Part shown: positions 18,365 to 22,595 of the stretch, piece after piece
Layout of the letters: each line of letters begins with the position of its first letter
Numbering within the stretch: the first letter of the stretch is position 1
Assembly: GCA_902825965.1 (NCBI GenBank)
Contig: CADEDA010000001.1
Span: 205,694 to 242,327 of the forward strand
Source: an uncultured Gemmatimonadota bacterium
Lineage (GTDB): Bacteria > Gemmatimonadota > Gemmatimonadetes > Gemmatimonadales > Gemmatimonadaceae
Length of the DNA: 36,634 nucleotides
Direction of reading: 5' to 3'
Made by a program: the position numbers and the translations under genes
The notes under the pieces: generated by a model
Databases searched by the model: none
Seen by the model: only the letters and a program-made list of their open reading frames with translations
Told to the model about the DNA's origin: nothing

Positions 18365-19057
18365 TCAATCTTCCAGCGTGAACGGGAATGCGACGGTGCA
18401 GGCAAACAGGAAGACGAGGTCGAACGCGAGCAGGATGCGCAGCCAGACGAACACGTCCGCGAGCGGCCGGCCCGCCAGCAGGTCGGCGGTGGACTGCGCC
18501 GCCGGGATCACCACCGGGATGAAGAACGGCAGCGCGAGCACCGGCAGCAGCAGCTCCGTCATTCGCGTGTTGGCCGTCATGCCGGCGAACAGCGTCCCCA
18601 CGCTCACCAGGCCGATCGACGCGAGCACGAGGACCCCGGCGATGGGGAGCGCGGCGGCACCGAGTGGAAGATTGTAGAAGAGCGAGACCGCGGGTAGTGC
18701 CACCGTTTGAACGCCCAGCACGAACGCCAGGTTCGCGAGCAGCTTGCCGAGGAAGATCGACTCTCGCGGCACGGGCGCGAGCAGCAGGGCGTCCATGGCG
18801 CCGTCGCGTGCCTCGACCGCGAACGCCCGATGCAGGCCGAGCATTCCCGAGAAGGTGAACGTCACCCAGAGCACGCCGGGAGCGAGGTCCAGCGGGCCGA
18901 CCGCCGTCGGGTCCCAGGCGAAGAAGAAGACCACGATCGACAGCAGCGTGAAGACGATCGCCGAGAGGAAGGCGCTGCGGGTACGGAACTCGATCGCGAG
19001 GTCCTTGCGGGCGATGACCCAGGCCGAGACGAGGATGCCGCGCGTGGGATCGGTCAT
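18365..19057 (-). CDS. ccmB: heme exporter protein CcmB
   Basis: A 230-residue ABC permease with about six membrane helices. It has the CcmB N-terminus (VIARKDLAIEFRTRSAFLSA), the conserved EARDGAMDALLLAPVPRESI stretch after helix 2 and SLFYNLPLG. With CcmA it forms the ABC module that drives release of holo-CcmE in cytochrome c biogenesis. The ATG at 19057 overlaps the ccmA stop as ATGA. Length is normal. Confidence 0.93.
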   Translation of the reverse strand: MTDPTRGILVSAWVIARKDLAIEFRTRSAFLSAIVFTLLSIVVFFFAWDPTAVGPLDLAPGVLWVTFTFSGMLGLHRAFAVEARDGAMDALLLAPVPRESIFLGKLLANLAFVLGVQTVALPAVSLFYNLPLGAAALPIAGVLVLASIGLVSVGTLFAGMTANTRMTELLLPVLALPFFIPVVIPAAQSTADLLAGRPLADVFVWLRILLAFDLVFLFACTVAFPFTLED

Positions 19058-19752
19058 GCGACGAGGTCCCGGTACTCGGCCGCGTAGCGCAGCGGGTCCA
19101 CCCCTGCGCTGGGCTCGTGCCGCACGAACCGCCCGTTCCGCATGATCGCCGCCTGCGTGGCGAGGGCGAGGCCTTCCTGGAGGTTGTGCGTGACGACGAT
19201 GAGGGCGGCGCCCGCCTCACGCCGCTCGCGGAGCAGCGCGGTGAGGGCCACGCCGCCCTGCTCGTCGAGCCCGGTGTACGGCTCGTCGCAGAGCAGCACG
19301 TCGGGCGTGTGCACGATGGCCCGTGCGATCGCGACCCGCTGCTGCAGGCCGCGCGAGAGGGCGCGCACGGGGACATCGGCGCGGTCGGCGACCCGCAGCG
19401 CCTCGAGTGCGCGCTGCACGGCGTCCTCCGGTGCGGCGAGGCCGTAGAGGGCGGCCGTGAATCGCAGGTTCTCGCGGGCCGTGAGCGCGTCGTAGAGCAT
19501 GACGCGGTGCGAGATGAGCCCCACGCGGACCCGCGCGGTGGTGGCCGGCAGCGCGATCCCGTCGATGGTCGCGGTGCCGCTGCTGGGCTTGAGGAGGCCG
19601 GCGAGGAGCCGCAGCGCCGTGGTCTTGCCCGCACCGTTGGGGCCGAAGAGCGCGAGACAGTCGCCGGCGTCGAGCGAGAACGAGAGGTCGTCGACCGCGC
19701 GTCGCGTGCCGAAGGTCCGCACGAGCGCCGTCGCGTGCACGAGCGCGGTCAT
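19054..19752 (-). CDS. ccmA: cytochrome c maturation ABC ATPase CcmA
   Basis: A 232-residue ABC ATPase. Walker A is GPNGAGKTT (about 37-45), Walker B is DVLLCDEP followed by YTGLD, and the switch His is in VTHN. The signature loop reads LSRGLQQR rather than the classical LSGGQ; CcmA proteins often have LSxGxxxR here, so activity is not in doubt. It powers the CcmBC complex. It is the first gene of ccmA-B-C-D-ppa. The 110 bp upstream hold a GC-rich hairpin belonging to the STAS gene's end, and no obvious promoter was found. Confidence 0.92.
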   Translation of the reverse strand: MTALVHATALVRTFGTRRAVDDLSFSLDAGDCLALFGPNGAGKTTALRLLAGLLKPSSGTATIDGIALPATTARVRVGLISHRVMLYDALTARENLRFTAALYGLAAPEDAVQRALEALRVADRADVPVRALSRGLQQRVAIARAIVHTPDVLLCDEPYTGLDEQGGVALTALLRERREAGAALIVVTHNLQEGLALATQAAIMRNGRFVRHEPSAGVDPLRYAAEYRDLVA

Positions 19753-19862: not shown

Positions 19863-20183
19863 CTACCCGATCAGGAACAGCGTGTCGAGCCGCGTGACGT
19901 GGAGCATGTCGATGACACTCGCAGGGACGCGCAGGAGCCGGGTTCTGAGCCCACGTTCGCGCGCGCGCTTCTGCAGGAGCACCAGCACGCCGAGTCCGGA
20001 CGCGTCCATTTCGACGGCACGGGAGAGATCGATGTCGACCGACTGTTGCCCCGACGTGATGGACTCCTCAAGCGCCTCGAGCACGGCGCGGCGGAACTCC
20101 AACCGATGGTCGGAGGTGAGCCGTGCGGGTGCAACGAGGGGTTCCACCGGAGCCTCCAGACTGGAAGAGAATGTGTTGAGCAT
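19863..20183 (-). CDS. STAS-domain protein (anti-sigma factor antagonist-like)
   Basis: A 106-residue single-domain STAS protein. The core VDIDLSRAVEMDASGLGVLVLL (about 55-76) contains the D-A-S-G-L-G loop; its Ser is the residue phosphorylated in SpoIIAA-type antagonists. The C-terminal helix and strand (VIDMLHVTRLDTLFLI) complete the fold. Such proteins bind anti-sigma kinases or act as scaffolds in partner-switching. No kinase or sigma factor gene is adjacent. The ATG at 20183 has GGGA 5 nt upstream, inside the 3' arm of a hairpin. A GEMM-like riboswitch precedes the gene on the same strand, so expression is probably set by a cyclic dinucleotide. Confidence 0.82.
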   Translation of the reverse strand: MLNTFSSSLEAPVEPLVAPARLTSDHRLEFRRAVLEALEESITSGQQSVDIDLSRAVEMDASGLGVLVLLQKRARERGLRTRLLRVPASVIDMLHVTRLDTLFLIG

Positions 20184-20186
20184 GCG

Positions 20187-20206
20187 ATTCCCGACACGCA
20201 GGGAAT
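20187..20206 (-). promoter_or_regulatory. hairpin that could hide the STAS ribosome binding site
   Basis: A perfect 6-bp inverted repeat (20187-20192 with 20201-20206, 8-base loop) ends 3 nt before the STAS start codon. Its 3' arm on the RNA is GGGAAU, which contains the only Shine-Dalgarno-like bases. It is a candidate expression platform for the upstream riboswitch. A second perfect 6-bp hairpin (20245-20250 with 20254-20259) lies between the two. Confidence 0.45.
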
Positions 20207-20270
20207 GGCTCACCGATCTTCCAGGTATGCTGCCGATGGAATGCACGCCCACCGGGCGTCCACTCGCGTC

Positions 20271-20367
20271 GAACCACTTTCGGCAACCGGACCATCTCGG
20301 ACCTTCCGAGACTCCTGGCTTTGCGACCCCACCTCGCGATGGGTGTGCTCTTGTCGGTGTGGCGTTC
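20271..20367 (-). ncRNA. GEMM-family riboswitch, cyclic-di-GMP-I-like
   Basis: On the minus strand the RNA shows the hallmarks of GEMM riboswitches. These are a GAGCACACC segment (20342-20350) resembling GGGCAAACC, a hairpin CCAUC-GCGA-GGUGG (20342 down to 20329) with a GNRA tetraloop, the near-invariant GGGUCGCAAAGCC (20329-20317), a second hairpin with a perfect 7-bp stem and AGG loop (20311-20295), and a closing GGUUGCCG (20288-20281). Outer pairing of GUGG (20361-20362 region) with CCAC (20274-20277 region) plus GAA with UUC closes the domain. Aligned from memory to the Vibrio Vc2 aptamer, the ligand-contacting G20, A47 and C92 equivalents are kept, which favours cyclic-di-GMP. The second half also resembles Geobacter-type GEMM RNAs, some of which bind cyclic GMP-AMP. 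Confidence 0.72.
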
Positions 20368-20406
20368 TGCGTGTTCGAGGACGAGGATATGCGAGATACG
20401 TGCCAC

Positions 20407-20448
20407 ACTTATGAGCGCATAAGTTACTGTTTTTCAATAGCTTATGAG
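20407..20448 (-). promoter_or_regulatory. dyad and repeated CTTATGAG sites with a possible STAS promoter
   Basis: The dyad acttatg-agcg-cataagt spans 20407-20424, and its half-site cttatgag (20408-20415) recurs at 20441-20448, 33 bp away or about three helical turns. On the minus strand TTGAAA (20432-20437) and CATAAG (20408-20413), 18 bp apart, could be the -35 and -10 of the riboswitch transcript. The repeats would then be operator half-sites. Confidence 0.35.
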
Positions 20449-20484
20449 ACTATCACGTCGTGACCGCGGAAGGTAGTACTGCTA

Positions 20485-20630: not shown

Positions 20631-22595
20631 ATGACCGACATCGACGTCCTGCTCACCGAGTCCCGCCGCTTCCCGCCCAGCGAGTCCTTCAAGGCCGCCG
20701 CGCACCTCCGCGACCGCGCCCTGCACGATGCCGCCGCCAAGGACCCCATCCACTACTGGTCGGAACGCGCGCGCGAGCTGCAGTGGCGCCGGGGCTGGGA
20801 CAGCGTGCTCGAGTGGAACCCACCGCACGCCAAGTGGTTCACCGGCGGATCGCTGAACGTCGCCGAGAACTGCCTCGACCGGCATCTCGCGGGAACGCGG
20901 CGCAACAAGGCCGCCATCATCTGGGAAGGGGAACCCGGGGACCGCCGGACGCTCACCTACTGGGAGCTCGCGCGAGAGGTGCGGACGTTCGCGAACGTGC
21001 TCAAGGGACTCGGCGTCCAGAAGGGGGACCGCGTCGGCATCTACCTCCCGCTCATCCCGGAAGCCGCCATCGCGATGCTCGCCTGTGCGCGCATCGGAGC
21101 GATCCATTCGGTGGTGTTCGGCGGCTTCAGCCCGGAATCGCTGCGCGACCGGATGAACGACGCGCAGGCCAAGGTGGTGATCACTGCCGACGGCGGATAT
21201 CGCCGGGGACAGATCGTGCCCCTCAAGCGCAACACCGACAAGGCGCTGGAGGAATGCCCCTCGGTGCAGCATGTGGTCGTGGTACAGCGCCGCAGCGCCG
21301 GGCCGATCACCGAGGCCCATGTGGACATGATCGAGGGCCGCGACCACTGGTACCATCGCCTGATGCAGCACGCGACCGACGTGTGCGAACCGGAGCCGAT
21401 GGACGCCGCGGACGTGCTCTTCATCCTCTACACATCGGGGACGACCGGGAAGCCGAAGGGAATCGTCCACACGACCGGCGGCTACCTCGTGGGGGCCGCG
21501 AGCTCGATGAAGTACGTGTTCGACCTCAAGGAAACCGACGTGTTCTGGTGCACGGCCGACGTGGGCTGGATCACGGGGCACACCTACCTGGTGTACGGGC
21601 CGCTCGCGAACGGTGCGACCTGCGTGATGTACGAGGGGGCGCCGGACTGGCCGGAGCGCGACCGCTTCTGGTCGCTCTGCGCCCGCCACGGCGTGACGAT
21701 CCTCTACACCGCCCCGACGGCGATCCGTGCGTTCATGAAATGGGGGGTCGAGCACCCGCGGAAGCACGACCTCTCGCAGTTGCGGCTGCTCGGTTCAGTG
21801 GGCGAGCCGATCAACCCCGAGGCGTGGATGTGGTACCACGAGCACATCGGGGGTTCACGCTGCCCGATCGTGGACACCTGGTGGCAGACCGAGACGGGGT
21901 CGATCGTCATCTCGCCGGTGCCGGGCGTGACGGAGACCAAGCCCGGCAGCGCGACGCAACCGCTCCCTGGCTACTCGGCCGAGCTCATGGACGCGAGCGC
22001 CAAGTCGATCGGCGTGGGCGGCGGGCTCCTGGTGCTCACCAAGCCCTGGCCGTCGATGCTCCGCACCATCTGGGGCGACGACGCGCGTTATGTGCAGACG
22101 TACTTCTCCAAGTGGCCGGGGCGCCCGGACCTGTACTTCGCCGGCGACGGCGCCAAGCGCGACGATGACGGCTACTTCTGGATCCTGGGGCGCGTGGACG
22201 ACGTGCTGAACGTCGCCGGCCACCGCATCGGCACCATGGAAGTGGAGTCCGCGCTGGTGGAGCATCCGGCGGTCGCCGAGGCGGCCGTGGTGGGCAAGGC
22301 GCACGAACTCAAGGGCCAGGCCGTCTGCGCGTTCGTGACGCTGCGGGACGGATTCAACAAGAGCTCCGCGCTGCGGGACGAACTGCGCGAGTTCGTCGCG
22401 ACCAAGATCGGCGCATTGGCGCGGCCCGACGACGTCCTGTTCTCGGCCGACCTGCCCAAGACGCGCTCCGGCAAGATCATGCGTCGCCTGTTGCGCGACA
22501 TCGCCGAGGGCCGCGCCCTCGGCGACACCACCACGCTGGCGGATCCGGGCGTGGTGGCGTCGCTCAAGGAGCAGTACGAGGCGGACGAGGGTTAG
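20631..22595 (+). CDS. acsA: acetyl-CoA synthetase (AMP-forming)
   Basis: A 654-residue ANL-superfamily enzyme that makes acetyl-CoA from acetate, ATP and CoA through acetyl-AMP. The phosphate loop [11 protein letters not shown] is at about 267-277, the WWQTETG motif with the acetate-pocket Trp at about 416-422, and [20 protein letters not shown] includes the hinge region. The C-terminal [14 protein letters not shown] (about 608-621) holds the catalytic Lys that is regulated by acetylation in many bacteria. The N-terminus ([19 protein letters not shown]) is the usual ACAS_N. The ATG at 20631 gives normal length; the frame is open upstream but that part is unlike the family. The stop overlaps the stop of the convergent DsbA-like gene. 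Confidence 0.95.

Follow-up and report, generated by a model that had tools for sequence, protein, structure and literature searches.

The window analysed here, a stretch of 36,634 nucleotides from an uncultured Gemmatimonadota bacterium (assembly of 4.07 Mb in 73 contigs, 95% complete), carries on its minus strand a putative riboswitch in front of a gene for a lone STAS protein. Which cyclic dinucleotide would such an RNA read? An earlier note, made from the letters of the DNA, had assigned the RNA to the GEMM type, with a GNRA-capped first hairpin, a near-invariant block, a second hairpin and a closing strand, and had reported the bases equivalent to G20, A47 and C92 of the Vc2 aptamer as kept.

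The aptamer and its pocket bases

We have performed an Rfam covariance-model search, in which a single match in the window reached the gathering cut-off. The match, to RF01051 (c-di-GMP-I/GEMM-I), lay at 20359-20279 of the minus strand and scored 59.9 bits, against a gathering cut-off of 35 bits, with an E value of 1.8e-9. The whole model was covered, with no broken or non-standard pairs, and the class given in the earlier note was thus borne out. The structural elements that it had listed were also recovered: the GNRA loop of the first hairpin is GCGA at 20337-20334, and the second hairpin was seen, as were the GGGUCGCAAAGCC block and the closing strand GGUUGCCG. Together with P1, which was read from the sequence as CCAC (20362-20359) pairing with GUGG (20277-20274), the aptamer extends over 20274-20362 (-). 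When the leaders of 24 homologues were aligned, the junction bases proved near-invariant and 97.1% of the cells were paired.

Two of the three pocket bases were as claimed, A47 at 20322 and C92 at 20283, bounding the stretch 20283-20322 (-). Base 20 had been misread. The RF01051 alignment places an A (20349, minus strand) at model position 11, directly 5' of G21 and C22, and this model position is what we take to be the place of Vc2 G20, in the numbering of the Vc2 structure. A G20 in the window RNA was rejected, since the base is A both in this alignment and in our tabulation of the genus, where all 16 GEMM-I RNAs carry it. Base 20 sets the preference between c-di-GMP and cGAMP in GEMM-Ib RNAs (PMC6456294). 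The earlier reasoning on the ligand had rested on the misread base, and an A there points to a cGAMP-type (GEMM-Ib) pocket.

The window RNA resembles c-di-GMP-I RNAs of the Vc2 type (RF01051) in scoring above the cut-off over the whole model, in A47 and C92 and in the GNRA loop on the first hairpin, whereas it differs from them in having A for G20 and in the deletion of the tetraloop-receptor columns (UAA / UAuG) of the model; its second hairpin would therefore be a plain helix. The missing receptor is a likeness to c-di-GMP-I-GGC RNAs (RF03167), whose cut-off is exceeded by the STAS leaders of several relatives. However, RF03167 has a consensus G at the A47 site and G20 where most STAS leaders have A, and the window RNA falls under RF01051 and keeps A47. 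With the GEMM-Ib, or 3',3'-cGAMP, riboswitches of Geobacter (pgcA, Gmet_0970) it shares the GEMM-I fold and A20 (PMC6456294), the two features by which it would belong to GEMM-Ib; it differs from them in belonging to another phylum, in its STAS target and in that no Hypr GGDEF was found. Judged by its sequence, the window RNA is a GEMM-I-class riboswitch of the A20 subtype, conserved with STAS across an order.

The STAS gene, its neighbours and its leader

The gene that the earlier note had placed behind the aptamer was confirmed as a STAS gene at 19863-20183 (-), with its ATG at 20183 and the aptamer ~95 nt upstream. The 106-residue product is a single STAS domain (STAS_2, 44 bits; cut-off, 29.2) with a DASGLG motif, whose serine is predicted to be phosphorylatable as in anti-sigma-factor antagonists, and it gave a 63-residue match to the antagonist TM1442. 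These three features are what it has in common with the SpoIIAA/RsbV group; unlike in that group, no kinase or phosphatase gene adjoins the STAS gene, and the TIGR00377 score of 32.9 falls short of the cut-off of 53.45. We infer its function from its family. A partner-switching role is plausible, because the protein resembles anti-sigma-factor antagonists (TM1442) and keeps DASGLG with its serine. The genome also encodes a HATPase_c_2 protein of 139 residues beside another STAS gene (L367, C6:128077-128448); the two resemble an RsbV/RsbW-type pair and lie elsewhere than the riboswitch-linked STAS gene.

Downstream of the STAS gene, after ~110 nt, come a ccmA-like ABC ATPase gene (19057-19752, minus strand) and ccmB (18368-19057, minus strand), in an order that is the same in the orthologues of genus g1. 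The divergent neighbour is an acetyl-CoA synthetase gene, acs (20631-22595, plus strand), which takes this orientation at each of the 30 STAS orthologue loci, with only a partial match in one of them (L180). STAS orthologues are present in many genera, and the relatives found in named records are Gemmatimonadaceae and Gemmatimonadetes MAGs. The same RNA, which the earlier note had proposed to look for, precedes the STAS homologues of many relatives. In a locus of family f2 (L278, 578-952 and 1-591, minus strand), STAS is followed by a response regulator of a single domain and, behind it, an ABC ATPase, an arrangement resembling the STAS-ccmA-ccmB of the window. A PilB/GspE-type gene, suggested earlier for the left edge of the window, was not found: Pfam gave nothing there except a helix-hairpin-helix (T2SSK-like) match, in an ORF at 190-795 of the minus strand.

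Upstream of the aptamer lies a sigma54-type promoter, TGGCACGTATCTCGC (20391-20405, minus strand), from which a transcription start near 20380 is predicted. It is a TGGCAC-N5-TTGC-like -24/-12 element whose pattern is kept in STAS orthologues, and RpoN is present in the genome. The consensus of the STAS leaders, TGGCAC[GA]-N4-T[CT]GC, keeps almost the same spacing to the aptamer; 26 of the 30 orthologues have the strict pattern, and the element is readable in nine STAS-linked loci outside genera g1, g7 and g30. Within the 70 nt searched, it was also found before 4 of 122 other GEMM-I RNAs (L277, L280, L298 and L304), and a fifth match in the same scan was the STAS leader of genome G037. Two of the four, L298 and L304, are closely related to the STAS leaders; the stretch retrieved with them showed no STAS ORF. 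Four STAS orthologues without a riboswitch (L159, L176, L178, L179) also retain the element. A palindrome, GTCACGACGTGA (20453-20464, minus strand), is a possible site for an enhancer-binding protein: its form RTCAC-N3-GTGAY lies ~59-60 nt upstream of the promoter element and occurs as the strict pattern in 17/30 STAS orthologues. Between palindrome and promoter, many STAS orthologues have a second dyad, which in the window is CATAAG...CTTATG at ~20421-20448 (-) and in relatives TAAC...GTTA.

The leader between aptamer and start codon (20184-20273, minus strand) is the candidate region for an expression platform. In constrained folds, the presence or absence of the aptamer did not alter Shine-Dalgarno pairing consistently, and base-pairing between the leader and the 3' strand of the aptamer did not on the whole exceed that of shuffled sequences (median p of 0.28 over 24 leaders), low p values being confined to a few leaders (L152, L156, L157, L160, L164). 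A hairpin at the Shine-Dalgarno sequence, spotted by eye in 14 of the leaders, was rejected, its stability being that of shuffles (mean z, +0.15). The RNAs of Geobacter pilM and GSU1761 use terminators (PMC9262584; PMC6456294), whereas none is evident in the leader of the window RNA. Control is probably exerted at translation, because a terminator is not apparent and the start codon lies 95 nt away.

The explanation that we favour, and to which we give an even chance, is that of an A20 GEMM-I riboswitch in a sigma54-type STAS leader whose pocket is kept for a non-canonical signal. A sigma54-type transcript would encode a lone STAS protein of the anti-anti-sigma type, with the A20 riboswitch of GEMM-I fold in its 5' leader. 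A cyclic dinucleotide would bind the three-way junction, stabilising the junction and P1, and its binding would change STAS output, probably translationally; the A20 pocket may be kept for a signal other than that of canonical G20-type c-di-GMP sensing. The ligand, the level and direction of control and the function of STAS in this scheme are what we infer. We have counted in its favour the RF01051 match, the conservation of A20, the association with STAS, the genomes with A20 and G20 RNAs, the sigma54-type element and the published A20G conversion of the Gmet_0970 RNA.

Base 20 and the genes behind it among relatives

The distribution of base 20 was examined at increasing phylogenetic distance. 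The genome itself holds a second GEMM-I RNA, also with A20, before a lipoprotein-like ORF, so it has A20 RNAs only; this second RNA (L002 1501-1590; C4:91504-91593, plus strand) keeps the tetraloop receptor, and there are seven such RNAs in the genus. GEMM-I RNAs were found in 9/17 genomes of the genus, and the base is A in 16 of the 16 RNAs. The genomes of the genus that lack GEMM-I RNAs (G136, G137, G142, G145-G148) have assemblies of 1.8-2.7 Mb, smaller than most that bear one. The other genera of the family gave 89 G20 and one C20 among 90 high-scoring GEMM-I RNAs, the STAS leader of G037 being one of these G20 RNAs. C was seen at position 20 in L120 (G009) and in L314.

STAS leaders were then compared among themselves. 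In the alignment of those with an aptamer from genera g1, g7 and g30, 21/24 had A20 and 3/24 had G20; among those from related genera and a second family, 30 of the 33 examined had A20. The three G20 leaders of the first set (L165, L170, L174), the only STAS leaders with that base, group in a single nested clade within genus g7. In the tree of the neighbouring Acs proteins, the orthologous leaders showed one change of base 20, from A to G, and presence of the riboswitch changed about four times among the STAS orthologues.

A covariance model built from the STAS leaders and run on the class gave matches in 171 of 394 genomes. Among 51 of these matches we counted 23 A20, 24 G20, 1 C20 and 3 with a gap at the base-20 column, frequencies that are not class-wide estimates, as the sample was drawn with an A20-rich model and high scorers were taken. 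All nine matches with a STAS ORF downstream had A20, eight of them coming from the second family of the order; the association of STAS with A20 in this sample gave a Fisher p of 0.0006, uncorrected for shared descent.

The genes behind the RNAs of this class sample also differed with base 20. Besides STAS, the products encoded behind A20 RNAs were polysaccharide sugar transferases and a family-2 glycosyltransferase, an ECF sigma factor, a HATPase protein and GAF-domain proteins, of which one matched HisKA weakly; some of these RNAs preceded lipoproteins and a cytochrome-c peroxidase. Downstream of G20 RNAs there were mainly lipoproteins and other exported proteins. Signalling and polysaccharide genes stood behind A20 RNAs only among the ORFs scanned, which were picked mechanically, some surely wrongly, and of which the Pfam scan took ten for G20. 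The A20 RNAs before GAF-domain proteins, the HATPase protein and the ECF sigma factor include L285, L287, L325, L331, L337 and L340 of family f8. Genomes G376, G431 and G332, which belong to another family, hold A20 and G20 RNAs together.

The ligand of the A20 RNAs

The A20G change converts the GEMM-Ib RNA of Gmet_0970 from cGAMP to c-di-GMP (PMC6456294), two known A20 GEMM-Ib RNAs prefer cGAMP about 1200-1600 fold (PMC6456294; PMC8835794), and PMC6274999 cites a crystal structure in which cGAMP is bound to G20A GEMM-I. The Geobacter riboswitch before omcST responds to both cGAMP and c-di-GMP (PMC6456294), and A20 is therefore not sufficient for strict cGAMP selectivity.

A source of cGAMP was sought in the genomes. 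In Hypr GGDEF domains, Ser or Thr replaces the Asp of diguanylate cyclases; GmGacA has Ser348 there, nine residues C-terminal to Asn339 (PMC6456294). In the genome under study, the Asp is present in each of the nine GGDEF domains, by which c-di-GMP is presumably made. No Hypr GGDEF was found among the readable domains of this genome, of its genus (covered by part of its GGDEF domains), of g30 (30 domains) or of the family-f8 genomes G376 and G431, with five weak domains (L216-L220) unreadable in the scan. Three regular-expression matches without the Asp were rejected as Hypr, being spurious frames and not GGDEF domains. SMODS CD-NTases were absent from the 95% complete draft genome, and SMODS nucleotidyltransferases were detected in 1/17 genomes of the genus. 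Thus, the searches for Hypr GGDEF and SMODS proteins brought up no known cGAMP synthase, which would have supported GEMM-Ib membership without defining it.

A GEMM-Ib-like base with no known synthase leaves two readings: the ligand would be cGAMP from an unknown synthase, or c-di-GMP bound through an altered pocket. We regard 3',3'-cGAMP as the single most likely ligand, with about as much weighing for it as against it. Counted against the favoured explanation as a whole were the failure to find Hypr or SMODS proteins, the canonical GGDEF domains, the dual response of the omcST RNA, the A20 RNAs before lipoproteins and the non-significant expression platforms.

The strongest alternative is that A20 tunes affinity for an unchanged ligand, the RNA sensing c-di-GMP more weakly than a G20 RNA would, so that STAS and the other genes under A20 RNAs would respond only at high c-di-GMP. 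We hold this to be quite possible, if somewhat doubtful. The A20-bearing genomes, including G376 and G431 with both kinds of RNA, show only canonical GGDEF domains, the genome under study has no GEMM-I RNA of another kind than A20, and A gave way to G once within orthologous leaders, all of which would agree with tuning; however, the A20 of known GEMM-Ib RNAs accompanies the strong preference for cGAMP quoted above. It is improbable that the A20 RNAs read another cyclic nucleotide or need extra pocket changes, the ligand being neither c-di-GMP nor 3',3'-cGAMP: the missing tetraloop-receptor columns, the relatives above the RF03167 (c-di-GMP-I-GGC) cut-off and the lack of a cGAMP synthase in our searches would fit, but A47 and C92, the remaining ligand-contacting bases, are retained. 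A chance resemblance or a decayed, functionless riboswitch, to which the non-significant platforms and the roughly four changes in leader presence on the tree might speak, is highly improbable in view of the E value, the formation of every model pair and the near-invariant junction bases and high share of paired cells in the 24 homologues.

Returning to cGAMP as the ligand, we tentatively envisage, with rather more doubt than belief, that Gemmatimonadota have two GEMM-I regulons side by side, distinguished by base 20. One would comprise G20 RNAs, c-di-GMP and exported lipoproteins, the other A20 RNAs, 3',3'-cGAMP and STAS, sensor and polysaccharide genes, with a cGAMP synthase that would be of another kind than Hypr GGDEF and SMODS CD-NTase enzymes. 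It was through riboswitches with A20 that the Hypr cGAMP pathway of Geobacter was discovered. Here A20 is conserved in two or more families of a phylum other than that of Geobacter, with different gene sets inside one cell. Either these bacteria would have a new cGAMP enzyme, or the rule that A20 means cGAMP would not be general. A literature search combining STAS, c-di-GMP, Gemmatimonas and riboswitch returned nothing relevant in the library searched, and the A20 surveys of Kellenberger 2015 and Nelson 2015 may include RNAs of this phylum. Nested as one clade among their orthologues, the three STAS leaders with G20 would constitute a natural experiment on base 20; they also differ from the others in P1 sequence.
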